Part shown: one piece after another, positions 21,823-37,463 of the stretch
Layout of the letters: every line of letters starts with the position of its first letter
How positions within the stretch are numbered: position 1 is the stretch's first letter
Assembly: GCF_001039275.2 (NCBI RefSeq)
Contig: NZ_CP030117.1
Coordinates: 365,001-429,000 of the forward strand
From: Brevibacillus brevis
GTDB lineage: Bacteria; Bacillota; Bacilli; Brevibacillales; Brevibacillaceae
DNA: 64,000 bases
Reading direction: 5' to 3'
The notes under the pieces: generated by a model
Database searches by the model: none
The model's input: only the letters and a program-made list of their open reading frames with translations
Told to the model about the DNA's origin: nothing
Position numbers and translations under genes: made by a program

Positions 21823-21859
21823 AAAGCTCCTGCCTGATTCATTGAGGCAGGGGCTTTTT
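21823..21859 (+). terminator. Terminator of copAZ
   Basis: AAGCTCCTGCCT / AGGCAGGGGCTT arms with a 9-base loop and TTTTT. Confidence 0.92.
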
Positions 21860-21889
21860 GGTGTTGAGATAAAAGTGGCTGTAGTGGAG

Positions 21890-22094
21890 GGGAAGAAGCC
21901 CCATTTCCAGTCTACGCTTCGGCCTACGCCCCGCAAGGGGTTAGACTGTCCGCTCCGAAATGAATGTCGGGAGCGCTTCAAAACTGAAAACGTTACAACG
22001 TTTTTGTATGTGATAAAAGCTGAAAACCCCCGCCATTCATTTCTCCGCTAGGTAGGGCTCCAGAGGCGCTAGGACTGGAAATGTTCTTCTTCCC
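21890..22094. repeat. Nested long palindrome, about 205 bp (copy A)
   Basis: The outer arms are 21890-21912 and 22073-22094 (GGGAAGAAG...ATTTCCAGTC against GACTGGAAAT...CTTCTTCCC). The inner arms are 21957-21971 and 22029-22043 (14 of 15 match). It has no supportable reading frame. As RNA it would be one long interrupted hairpin. Size and design match copies B and D. The span 21860-22499 holds only this and the next element. Confidence 0.75.
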
Positions 22095-22178
22095 AAGCAG
22101 CTTTTTACTTTTTACTACCTTTTGAAAGCAGCATTCAAGCTGTCTTTTAAAAAGCATGTAGAACCCCAACAGCTCGTA

Positions 22179-22382
22179 GAGGAAACAGGAGAAATAAGCG
22201 AAGATCTTTGGACACACCCACCGAGGCGCAGCGAAAAAAAGAGAAACTGCCTTTAGCGTCCACCTCTGAGCCACATCCTGATGGACTACTTTGGACGCGG
22301 TTTCGCTTTTTTTCACGGAGCCGGGCACCCTATGCTCCCGCGCAGGGGTTCCAAGAATCTGAGCGTTTTCTCCTGTTTCCTC
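22179..22382. repeat. Nested long palindrome, about 204 bp (copy B)
   Basis: The outer arms are a perfect 16-base pair at 22179-22194 and 22367-22382 (GAGGAAACAGGAGAAA), extended by imperfect pairing of 22195-22211 with 22351-22366. The inner arms are AGCGTCCA near 22255 against TGGACGC near 22292, extended by the A-rich/T-rich runs at 22233 and 22307. It has no supportable gene. Confidence 0.75.
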
Positions 22383-22499
22383 CCCACCACAACAGCGAGT
22401 ATAAGGCACTAATATCTTGATCGAGTGAGCAACTAACAGCTAATCTAATCCGACTCATAAAGAAAGCCGTCATTCGGTTAAAACCGTGTTAAACAAACG

Positions 22500-22528: not shown

Positions 22529-22555
22529 CAAATCACAATCAAGCTACAAAACACA

Positions 22556-22690
22556 TACGGCCTAGTTCCGAGATTCTCGGAAGCGGGGGAACCAATCTTT
22601 TGGGGTTAATCCTGAGTGATCAGGAGGGATGAGAAAATGTCTTCTCTGCCATCCTACCCGTCAGCTAACCTCGTCGGCCAAAGCAGGGAA
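22556..22690 (+). promoter_or_regulatory. c-di-AMP (ydaO/yuaA) riboswitch upstream of opuA
   Basis: The conserved ydaO blocks are present in order: a GC stem, GCGGGGGAACCA, GGGGTTAATCC, AGGGATGAGA, and CATCCTACCCGTCAGCTAAC followed by CTCGTCGGC. This class binds cyclic di-AMP and turns expression off when the nucleotide is abundant. Downstream is a long terminator and then a betaine transporter, a classic target. The sequence is closely similar to the second copy at 27172. Confidence 0.93.
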
Positions 22691-22751
22691 GGTCATGGAT
22701 GGATAAAGTCTAGGCATTTAATGCGCAACAAGGGAATTCCTTGCGGGCGTG

Positions 22752-27146: not shown

Positions 27147-27171
27147 GAGACTCGTAACCAACAATTGCAAA

Positions 27172-27312
27172 TATGGCCAAATCCCGAGGCACTCGGGAAC
27201 GGAGGACCCAATCAGTAGGGGTTAATCCCACGTATGAATCGTGGGAGGGATGAGACACTCTTTCGCCATCCTACCCGTCAGCTAACTTCGTCGGCTAAAG
27301 CGAGGGAGGTCT
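27172..27312 (+). promoter_or_regulatory. c-di-AMP (ydaO/yuaA) riboswitch upstream of kdp
   Basis: It shows the same ordered blocks as at 22556: CGGAGGACCCAA, GGGGTTAATCC, AGGGATGAGACA, and CATCCTACCCGTCAGCTAAC followed by TTCGTCGGC. c-di-AMP riboswitches commonly govern potassium uptake. The next genes are the Kdp potassium ATPase. Confidence 0.93.
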
Positions 27313-27426: not shown

Positions 27427-27477
27427 ACTTACAAGTAAATAGCTGTTTTTTTGAAAAAGGAAACGGGAGACAAAACG

Positions 27478-27676
27478 CAAAGAAGGCAACTTCAAGTCGG
27501 CTGGGCGTTAGGTAGACCAATGAGTACTTTTTCTCCGATACAAAAAATCGTTTTATTTGCCGCGGGAAGCGGGCGACTTCGTTCGTCTGTTCCTCTTCAG
27601 CTCGGTCAAATATGGCGATCTTTCGGGGAAATCGTAAGCATTGGTCTATTTTTTTCCCAAATGGCAGGTTTTCTTC
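27478..27676. repeat. Degenerate long palindrome in the kdp leader (copy C)
   Basis: TAGACCAATGAGTAC (27513-27527) pairs with GTAAGCATTGGTCTA (27634-27648) at 13 of 15 bases, with patchier pairing outward to an overall span of about 200 bp. It resembles copies A, B and D in size but is less regular. The leader from 27430 to 27740 otherwise contains no gene I can support. Confidence 0.5.
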
Positions 27677-27766
27677 AAAAAAGAAAACTCGTACAGGGGA
27701 AGCGAGAGAGACGAGTCGGCCAGACTTCACGGAATAGTACATACGACAAAAAAGGAGGGACATGGC

Positions 27767-35529: not shown

Positions 35530-36384
35530 ATAAAAGTAAAAGTAGCTGGTATCCCGCATTTCACAGGTGCATATGTCTCTGGTACAGAATTAGCCCCGGA
35601 CGCGATTCGTACAGCAGGATTGATCGAGCAGTTGCAGCAGCATGGCTTGGAAGTGCAGGATATAGGAAATCTACATCTTCCCGACGATTTGCCTCGCCAT
35701 AATATTCCACCAGTTCGTAATTGGCCGGCTCCGCGTATGTTTTGGGATTTGCTGCAAAAGGACGCGCAAGAGTGGCTCGATACGGATGACTTTGTCTTGA
35801 TGCTCGGCGGCGATTGCAGCTTGGTCGTTGCAACGGCACAGGCTCATCAGGCTCGGTATCAGGAAAAAGCGTATCTGCTCGTGCTTGACGGTCATCTCGA
35901 TGCAGTAGTTCCATCGGCTTCCCGCTGTATTGGAGCAGCAGGGATGGGATTATGGTTTTTGCTTCAGGATCGTGGACAATGGGTCGAACCAAGCGGCTGG
36001 GATGCAGAGCGAATCCGTCTTGTCGGCTGTCAGCAGATGCCTCGAGAAACTTTCGGCGTTGACATCATGACCTTGGCCCAGCTCACAGAAGGCAGCATCG
36101 TGGACCGAGTTTCTCATACGCTCCAATCGATCCCGCCTGATGCCAAAATCCTCGTTCATTTCGACGTAGATATCATGCACAAAGACGCGATGGCAGCCGC
36201 CTATTCTCCAAGTGAGATTGGATTGTCGCTGTCCGAAGCGGAGGCATTGCTCGCAACAGTTTTACGAGATTCGCGCGTGACCAGTATGGAAGTGACGGAA
36301 TTCTCAGGGGCAAGAGATACCACTGGCGAGTATGCGCGGAGGCTAGTAGAATTGCTCGCCCGGGCACTATCTGCCCGTGCTTAA
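35530..36384 (+). CDS. Arginase/agmatinase-superfamily protein, apparent non-standard start
   Basis: A ureohydrolase-fold protein of about 284 residues. Metal-site motifs are LGGDCS (Cys where arginases have His), LDGHLDA (equivalent of DAHxD, ligands kept) and HFDVDIMHKD (equivalent of SxDxDxxDP). Homologous sequence (VKVAGIPHFTGAYVSGTELAPDAIR) extends upstream of the first TTG at 35620, yet no ATG, GTG or TTG occurs between the in-frame stop at 35506 and 35620. GGGAGGG is eight bases before an ATA codon at 35530, so translation may begin there, or an ATG has been lost. The reaction is unknown; Cys-variant members are common among uncharacterised relatives. Confidence 0.8.
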   Translation: MKVKVAGIPHFTGAYVSGTELAPDAIRTAGLIEQLQQHGLEVQDIGNLHLPDDLPRHNIPPVRNWPAPRMFWDLLQKDAQEWLDTDDFVLMLGGDCSLVVATAQAHQARYQEKAYLLVLDGHLDAVVPSASRCIGAAGMGLWFLLQDRGQWVEPSGWDAERIRLVGCQQMPRETFGVDIMTLAQLTEGSIVDRVSHTLQSIPPDAKILVHFDVDIMHKDAMAAAYSPSEIGLSLSEAEALLATVLRDSRVTSMEVTEFSGARDTTGEYARRLVELLARALSARA

Positions 36385-36423
36385 AGCCCTCCCATGCGAA
36401 AAAGAATAGATTTGATAGCAAGT

Positions 36424-36470
36424 GAGCTCGGCAGTCCTGATTTCAGTTCAGGCTGTCGAGCTCTTTTTTT
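36424..36470 (+). terminator. Strong terminator after the arginase-family gene
   Basis: GAGCTCGGCAG / CTGTCGAGCTC outer stem, CCTGA / TTCAGG inner stem, seven T. Confidence 0.93.
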
Positions 36471-36516
36471 GATCTTCCTAAGTTCTAGAAGGTACCGATG
36501 AGCAAAGAAAGCTGGT

Positions 36517-36728
36517 GAGAAGAAAAAGCACAGGGCTCGCAGACCTTGATAACGCCTACCCGGTCGGAACTTTAAAAAGAGGACCACGCTTGTCGAACAC
36601 TTCTTCCCCGAGAAACGTCCGCCCGTAGGGTGGCTTTGGTTCGACGGTCCTCTTTTTAAAGTGGAGACGGACAGTCAATCCCCCACGCTGGCGTGTCAGA
36701 GTCGAAGAGAACTGTGCTTTTTCTTCTC
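36517..36728. repeat. Nested long palindrome, about 212 bp (copy D)
   Basis: Outer arms are a perfect 17-base pair at 36517-36533 and 36712-36728 (GAGAAGAAAAAGCACAG). The inner arms are a perfect 16-base pair at 36570-36585 and 36646-36661 (CTTTAAAAAGAGGACC). Left arms are purine-rich and right arms pyrimidine-rich, as in copies A and B. The stretch 36385-36896 holds only the terminator, this element and the next promoter. Confidence 0.8.
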
Positions 36729-36796
36729 CTCCCCTATGTTGACTCAAACCCCAACTCTTTTGACAGGAAAATAATATTTTTAAAAATAAGGAGAAA

Positions 36797-36860
36797 GGAT
36801 TTTCCAGCAAATTCGTATTAGTGTTGAATCAACCAAAACGGAAGCTGCGCAGCATTCCCC
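36797..36860 (+). promoter_or_regulatory. Candidate ECF promoter and conserved leader, copy 1
   Basis: GGATTTTCC (36797-36805), then eight bases and CGTATTAG (36814-36821). The same pair with the same spacing precedes the second sigma gene. A 32-base leader block (36829-36860), including the perfect palindrome GCTGCGCAGC at 36844-36853, is identical in both copies. Recognition by the encoded sigma factors is inferred. Confidence 0.65.
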
Positions 36861-36896
36861 AAAGGCTGATCGGTTATAGATGGAGGAGTAGTAGAA

Positions 36897-37463
36897 ATGC
36901 CGGACGATCGGGAATTGATCGAGCAAATCCTTGCTGGCAATCATCAGTTGTACAGTCAGATTATCGACAGGTACAAGGGCAAGATCGTTACTTACTTGTA
37001 CAAAATGATCGGTAACATGCCGGACGCACAGGATTTGGCTCAAGACGTGTTTACCAAAACCTTTTACCTATTGAAAGACTATCGGCCTGAGCACAAGTTT
37101 TCTTCATGGCTGTATCGAATCGCGAGCAATCATTGTCTCGATGAAATACGAAGACGCAAAAGAACGGAGCGGACGGCAATCGTGGAGGAACAGATCGTTG
37201 ATCCAGAGACGCCAGAAACCGCCCTGTTAAAAAAGGAACGGGACGCCCAACTGGAACGAAGTATCATGCTGCTGGATCAGGAGTATCGTGAGGTGTTCGT
37301 CCTGCACTACTTGCAGCGTCTGTCGTATCGAGAAATCAGCGAGCGATTGTCTCTTACGGAGAGTGCGGTTCAAATGCGTTTGTTCCGTGCTCGTAAAGAG
37401 ATGAAAAAAAGCCTGACGAAAACGATGGGAGGGGGAGATGTTTATGACATGCTTCATGTTTAA
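36897..37463 (+). CDS. ECF RNA polymerase sigma factor (copy 1)
   Basis: A 188-residue sigma-70 family factor with only regions 2 and 4. Region 2 is YLYKMIGNMPDAQDLAQDVF to FSSWLYRIASNHCLDEIRRRK and region 4 is EVFVLHYLQRLSYREISERL to AVQMRLFRARKEM, each split by a variable linker. It directs polymerase to a small extracytoplasmic-stress regulon. The ATG at 36897 follows GGAGGAG. The 3' end overlaps the anti-sigma gene by 20 bases, a typical coupled pair. It is about 80 percent identical by eye to copy 2 at 39294. Confidence 0.95.
   Translation: MPDDRELIEQILAGNHQLYSQIIDRYKGKIVTYLYKMIGNMPDAQDLAQDVFTKTFYLLKDYRPEHKFSSWLYRIASNHCLDEIRRRKRTERTAIVEEQIVDPETPETALLKKERDAQLERSIMLLDQEYREVFVLHYLQRLSYREISERLSLTESAVQMRLFRARKEMKKSLTKTMGGGDVYDMLHV

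Follow-up and report, generated by a model that had tools for sequence, protein, structure and literature searches.

Brevibacillus brevis carries a well-bounded and real family of giant palindromic extragenic repeats that we have found described nowhere. Three members, A, B and D, lie in the window, by which we mean the whole 64,000-nucleotide stretch analyzed here (positions 365001-429000 of the 6.44-Mb, single-contig genome G000), and they belong to one homologous repeat family. Units across the family are about 205-280 bp long; at least 86 of them, grouped into 61 clusters, lie between called genes of G000. These copies sit 3' of genes, behind terminators, and have a fixed orientation relative to replication in G000. 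Their sites are partly conserved, they decay by deletion, they are linked to differences in gene blocks between genomes, and the pairing of their arms is strongly maintained. Our best explanation is a giant foldback family resembling REP/BIME elements, which once spread non-autonomously and is now mostly fixed and homogenized by recombination. We consider the chances that this account is right to be about even, and both the mover and the function are ones that we infer.

A preliminary description made from the letters of the window had proposed that A, B and D are long nested hairpins of a common plan, and both the hairpins and the common plan are real. Segment A (21870-22110) folds at -93.6 kcal/mol (z -5.36), B (22165-22400) at -93.4 kcal/mol (z -6.57) and D (36500-36745) at -104.7 kcal/mol (z -6.37), and in each case none of 200 dinucleotide-preserving shuffles was equal. 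The outer helices comprise 22 pairs in D, 16 in B and 23 in A, with perfect complementarity between the outer arms of B (22179-22194 and 22367-22382). The palindrome at D was correctly recognized, but its length of 212 bp was too short for the entire repeat (about 36471-36752), whose ends were set by 19 aligned copies and by paralogue matches to approximately positions 851-1131 of a query of 1844. A proposed fourth and weaker copy, C (27440-27720), folds more weakly than the others (z -4.41 for segment 27455-27720). It has no second copy in G000 by BLAST and no match to R1, a covariance model that we built from 19 D copies and used with reporting at E up to 0.001, and C was dropped from the family. 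The relevant features of the window are the following.

About 21824-21861, plus strand: intrinsic terminator of copZ, directly 5' of copy A, read from the sequence.
21884-22105, minus strand (sense by homology to D): copy A, a nested palindrome, from fold z, R1 match and 21 subfamily copies.
22106-22170, no strand: spacer separating head-to-head A and B, from the alignment of subfamily copies.
22119-22140, minus strand: small hairpin TTGAA..TTCAA adjoining the sense 5' end of A, found by eye.
22171-22396, plus strand: copy B, a nested palindrome, from fold z, R1 match and 24 subfamily copies.
About 36424-36470, plus strand: intrinsic terminator of the upstream gene (35620-36384), directly 5' of D, read from the sequence.
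36471-36752, plus strand: copy D, the entire repeat including its conserved 5' and 3' ends, with a core hairpin at 36507-36745.
36755-36774, plus strand: 20 bases identical to the terminal bases, with the stop codon, of the gene occupying the place of D in genome G006, from comparison of the joint.

The copZ product scores above cut-off for the NCBIfam copper ion binding protein family TIGR00003, and matches chaper_CopZ_Bs at 2.5e-22, which is below cut-off. The small TTGAA..TTCAA hairpin recurs with altered letters next to several other A copies, as judged by eye in the flanks of the 21 A copies. The window also includes two c-di-AMP riboswitches (RF00379). One (22549-22695) lies right behind B and precedes what by eye is an ABC-transporter operon, and the other (27165-27311) lies ahead of C in a putative kdp leader.

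It had been suggested that the arms of these elements differ and that pairing rather than sequence is conserved. We find instead that B and D share sequence, that A shares it on the opposite strand, and that each has many close copies in G000. The common stretch can be read directly as GGAGACGGACAGTCAATCCCCC in D, GGAGTCGGGCAGTCAATCCC in B, GCGGACAGTCTAACCCC in reversed A and GGAGCGGACAGTCTCAGCCCCC in reversed A', a variant of A discussed below. Model R1 matches B on the strand of D (window 22168-22401, plus strand, 77.2 bits) and matches A on the minus strand (window 21873-22105, 46.7 bits), with no match to A on the plus strand. Counts of R1 hits include antisense echoes, because palindromic D itself echoes at about 43-71 bits. 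Unlike these echoes, A gives an antisense match without a sense match, and all nine A copies reported by R1 in G000 are antisense to the A alignment. With B running in the sense of D and A against it, the two copies in the window are arranged head to head.

The fetched stretches of G000 hold 21 copies of A, 19 of A', 24 of B and 22 of D (19 full, two internally deleted and one diverged). Variant A' matches both ends of A (only the first end in one copy), and all 19 of its copies lie just 5' of a B. These numbers are lower bounds, given that BLAST scored the best 40 of 66 candidates for A plus B and the best 40 of 56 for D; a further place in G000 (4937690) was added later by the R1 search. Copies occur alone, in head-to-head pairs (A'-B, A-B, A-D and A-A) and in tandem arrays. 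Only one copy, at 1658623, is reversed in BLAST orientation; it makes up the right half of two A elements placed head to head. A diverged D-like copy at G000:C1:875950-876189 (72% identity, 140 bits with R1), located 1.6 kb from a B, possibly represents a further subfamily.

The preliminary description had allowed for chance pairing, to be recognized by an absence of further copies in related genomes. Further copies do exist: in addition to the dozens in G000, R1 has matches in 30 of the 39 genomes of the order, representing five of its seven genera, with 1-52 hits each (echoes included); nine genomes have none. Across the phylum, R1 matched one of 398 genomes, namely G000, and none of the 397 others, in a scan made less sensitive by stricter filters and by the scoring of five candidates per genome, such that absence there is moderately tested. 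An exact signature pattern occurs in 81 stretches of a species-genome collection. Among the 80 listed, 67 are from Brevibacillus and 13 from other organisms, the latter being single hits without an R1 match. We abandoned a plasmid or phage origin, as a search with the A+B stretch gave no match and the signature pattern was not found in viral contigs. Pairs and arrays are evident in other genomes as well. Genome G021 has ten pairs in the (-,+) arrangement and none in the (+,-) arrangement, nine with spacers of 24-412 bases and one with a spacer of about 1.1 kb. In genome G007, five R1 hits recur every 351-352 bases. This tandem array (L158:4517-6351) comprises five 300-nt copies, whose similarity to the first alternates between 97% and 73%, and a sixth piece of 77 nt, a pattern suggesting that the array arose by duplication of a two-copy unit.

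To assess how well the stems are maintained, we aligned 19 copies of D, 22 of B and 15 of A. The consensus stems form in 98.5% (D), 98.6% (B) and 95.8% (A) of cells versus 38-56% in a slid-arm control; these values benefit from the fact that each structure was inferred from the very alignment in which it was scored. Cells changed on both sides number 17 in D, 57 in B and 22 in A versus 3.1, 23.3 and 7.2 in shuffles, and none of 500 shuffles reached the observed values. Likewise, none of 500 shuffles scored as high for covariation in any of the three subfamily alignments. The number of pairs changed on both sides shows no excess in B, where 78 of 500 shuffles reach it, and further pair types show no excess over shuffles in B (287 of 500 reach) or in A (351 of 500 reach). 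When cells are counted, double Watson-Crick changes exceed every other type of departure in all three subfamilies; when events are counted on trees, they exceed the other types in B only. A covariance-model search of Brevibacillus genomes had been recommended as a check; R1 matches most genomes of the order, and the alignments of the copies contain many compensatory changes.

This covariation favors the idea that the elements encode an undescribed structured RNA, a folded transcript of about 210-250 nt that would be produced by terminator read-through or from its own promoter and whose conserved loops would bind a partner. The letters of the internal loops are conserved across genera, as judged by eye, and at 17 of 19 loci from other genomes with a called upstream gene (L122-L142) the R1-sense copy lies behind a gene on its own strand. 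Wobble pairs provide a further measure. Among Watson-Crick-majority pairs in 67 D, 73 B and 36 A unique copies, the ratios of G-T to A-C cells as given are 34:28, 40:39 and 26:38, a weak preference compared with the 39:6 of a SAM riboswitch control (28 unique of 30 sequences, from four of the same genomes). Tree-counted G-U to A-C events as given are 31:24 in D, 35:22 in B and 19:32 in A. The ratio for A is reversed, as expected from its reversed orientation, and in the homology sense the total is 98:65 (p 0.012). The corresponding SAM riboswitch events are 16:5, and the difference from the elements is non-significant (p 0.23). Changes confined to single copies are nearly balanced, at 40:33 for the elements in the homology sense and 3:4 for the SAM riboswitch. 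On single branches of the trees, both sides of a pair changed together 28 times in D, 66 times in B and 30 times in A, and 25 times in the SAM riboswitch.

The elements may therefore be under constraint at the RNA level that is apparently weaker than that on a riboswitch. We dropped a DNA-only, strand-symmetric reading because the symmetry of the cell counts was gone after tree correction, leaving a modest preference for G-U. Among the options named in the preliminary description, a repeat element fits best, and a purely RNA reading of the family is weak because G-U is only modestly preferred over A-C. Several other observations also argue against an RNA. No shared promoter consensus is seen by eye upstream of the elements, A copies are antisense to their upstream gene, and no Rfam family scores over threshold at the elements, where the matches below threshold are at chance level. 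Folding energies of sense and antisense strands do not decisively tell the two apart. Template switching between arms has been proposed as a one-step source of paired arm changes, and 78.5% of two-step compensatory changes are reported to have involved G-U pairs (PMC8794818). Taken together, we regard a structured RNA as possible and rather doubtful, and the family warns that covariation by itself is no proof of an RNA.

The placement of the copies is strongly patterned. A same-strand gene precedes 58 of the 61 clusters when genes are called by codon usage (54 with a cruder caller), and a terminator-like site separates the stop codon from the element in 50 of the 57 gaps that could be tested, compared with 101 of 152 gene ends used as controls (p 0.0018). 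In the 32 cases with such a site before A or A', the BLAST match starts 5-40 bases past the T-run. The 30 upstream genes scanned, 27 of which drew a family match, have no visible function in common and belong to unrelated housekeeping and transport processes. Read in the direction of the copies in the window, every one of the 61 clusters points with replication, the 1658623 copy being reversed inside its cluster, and a conservative test gives 60 of 61 clusters versus 288 of 361 genes of the same stretches (p 1.7e-5). The three clusters behind a counter-oriented upstream gene likewise run with replication. From origin to terminus, successive fifths hold 17, 20, 16, 7 and 1 clusters, with the origin placed by eye from dnaA, which starts at base 28, and the terminus taken as mid-chromosome.

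Such an arrangement could be expected of a polar signal for chromosome organization or replication, for example a site that is read on the single-stranded lagging-strand template, and the partial conservation of sites is in keeping with this idea. An architectural signal had been among the first proposals, and the strong biases in orientation and distance from the origin speak for it. However, the homology sense of A and A' runs against replication, opposite to that of B and D. Moreover, eight of the 12 hits in genome G034 run with replication, assuming an origin at base 1, and nine of the 39 genomes of the order have no R1 match. We therefore think it unlikely that the family primarily serves this role.

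To evaluate the age of the sites, we set the clusters in the first 2 Mb of G000 against stretches fetched from G023, a member of the same clade. In 19 of the 20 clusters with both flanks in one stretch (flank identity 87-97%), G023 has an element in the same gap. Orthologous copies resemble each other more than they do the average paralogue in 16 of the 19 pairs, but in nine the closest copy of all is a paralogue, with two ties. In other clades and genera, nine of 42 element places are at the same gene junction as a G000 element, as defined by a flanking gene on the matching side whose protein is at least 70% identical (some few of these places have no callable flank), where about 0.4 are estimated by chance from roughly 5,900 genes. 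Five same-site copies from across clades rank 5/24, 16/24, 5/19, 8/19 and 17/19 in similarity. These ranks at shared sites imply either that the sites are old and the sequences are kept alike within a lineage, or that sites are reused. Decayed copies persist at four unshared sites (979795, by eye, 2356134 and 2429734 in G023; 4761303 in G000), and in one of these copies a deletion between AACTG repeats left both ends in place. These remnants rule out an empty site as proof of recent insertion at the four places. Four D copies of G006 were also sought in G000, three of which have no synteny by which to judge.

Two sites in the window connect the elements with differences in gene content. At the D site, G000, G002, G011, G012, G022 and G023 hold D, whereas in G005, G006 and G018 (the last by coordinates only) homology stops at query position 850-852 and restarts at 1136 after about 1,388 other bases. 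In place of D, G006 has an open frame of 455 codons (L312:153-1520) with no NCBIfam match when searched from codon 14 (442 residues). The last 20 bases of this frame, including its stop codon, are found directly behind D in G000, and the right joint is the same in G005. On the simplest reading of these joints, D would have arrived with loss of the gene, the alternative being an arriving gene that came to end in resident bases. Trees of the two genes flanking D (window 35620-37463; L287-L295 and L310-L312) are discordant, with some weakly supported branches, and thus exchange between Brevibacillus species at this site is likely. Where G000 has the A-B pair, G023 carries a block of six open frames. 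More generally, when G000 is compared with G023, a difference above 600 bp is seen in 4 of 25 gaps with elements versus 0 of 72 length-unmatched control gaps (p 0.0037). Leaving out the A-B site, where the difference was known beforehand, 3 of 24 element gaps remain (about 0.014 by hand calculation, again with length-unmatched controls). Elsewhere, a single A'B at G000:C1:1525620 corresponds in G023 (L109:7403-10968) to an A'B on either side of a 2.3-kb stretch, which is the pattern expected from recombination between repeats.

Target-site duplications had been put forward as a sign of a mobile element, and we sought them at D and A copies without finding any. The longest word shared by a copy's own flanks averages 5.47 at D versus 5.30 in shuffles, and 4.81 at A versus 4.97. 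No clean empty site was found in comparisons of G000 with relatives. The Y1 transposase (PF01797) is present in 22 of the 39 genomes of the order with a distribution unrelated to that of the elements, and is absent from G000 and from 10 further element-bearing genomes; we rejected it as the mover. A partial IS1595-type transposase frame lies within the spacer of one head-to-head pair in G021 (L147:3124-3480). Relatives of IS1595 occur in seven of the 39 genomes and not in G000, and IS1595 was rejected as well; no resident mover was found in G000 among these two kinds.

These results bear on whether the elements are ordinary MITEs, which would make them non-autonomous ends belonging to a transposon that remains active in the genus. 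Like MITEs, they are non-coding, dispersed inverted repeats with lineage-specific amplification into subfamilies, they form inverted pairs with spacers, and one such pair surrounds the IS1595 fragment. Unlike MITEs, they show no target duplications at D or A, and they are palindromic over nearly their whole length; no partner transposase of the two kinds tested was found for them. The near-complete sharing of sites with G023 within the clade is also at odds with current activity, and we judge this explanation quite unlikely.

Among known repeats, REP, BIME and REPIN elements (GTAG and CGTC families) are likewise extragenic palindromes of high copy number arranged in head-to-head dimers and clusters, and REP families also have subfamilies with alternative complementary stem bases (PMC3733652). 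REP units there are 20-40 bp with stems of 5-13 bp, in comparison to 205-280 bp here, at least five times longer. Of the two foot tags of REP (GTAG or CGTC), GTAG is seen by eye at the foot of A and B and not of D. A RAYT/Y1 transposase would be expected in a genome with REP/BIME elements, and G000 has no Y1. The layout is thus REP/BIME-like, yet unit size and the absence of Y1 place the family outside REP/BIME. The ERIC, YPAL, RU and bcr1 repeats (about 100-170 bp) are also intergenic, fold into hairpins and reach tens of copies or more (PMC2267715, PMC2759123). They are nearest in size and have been described from other lineages. Pairs of these repeats are not known to have an orientation linked to replication.

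Two kinds of mobile element have insertion habits that would yield the same position and orientation. Group IIC introns insert behind terminator hairpins, but no intron family of Rfam matches at the Brevibacillus elements. IS608 of the IS200/IS605 family inserts into the lagging-strand template (PMC6006769), but G000 has no Y1 transposase. Among the open-access papers listed in our literature searches we found no earlier description of the Brevibacillus family; the word Brevibacillus is absent from PMC12306157, PMC3733652 and PMC2267715, and the word Firmicutes is absent from the text of PMC3733652 on REP.

We return to the REP/BIME-like foldback family as the preferred explanation. On this view, the elements would be non-autonomous foldbacks that were dispersed by a putative mover, probably while they were folded single strands at the replication fork. 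Fork-borne folded strands would account for both the orientation of the copies and their place behind terminator hairpins. In the clade of G000, copies would now be mostly fixed and kept similar by recombination among them, and the complementarity of their arms might be maintained by template switching, by selection, or by both. Perhaps the copies chiefly serve as portable homology for swapping gene blocks between terminators. Several findings count against this account. The conservation of sites between genera (nine of 42) is needless for a purely selfish element, the preference for G-U over A-C hints at selection at the RNA level, and the A subfamily has a sense orientation opposite to that of B and D. 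In addition, the link to gene blocks comes from four sites, one known beforehand, with length-unmatched controls, and there is no target duplication, clean empty site or resident Y1 or IS1595 mover. A further idea, in which a hypothetical enzyme cuts and joins hairpins on the lagging-strand template and thereby loads gene blocks behind terminators or unloads them from there, strikes us as very unlikely; if true, these folded-strand sites would form a dispersed, integron-like exchange system along the chromosome that is peculiar to this bacterial family.

One would expect large nested palindromes to be unstable. Despite this, dozens are kept here in a fixed orientation, some at sites that different genera have in common. 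The family is a natural replicate set for examining whether pairing is maintained by template switching or by selection. It should also be useful for asking why palindromes that follow terminators are aligned with the replication fork, and whether the gain and loss of genes are guided by repeats.
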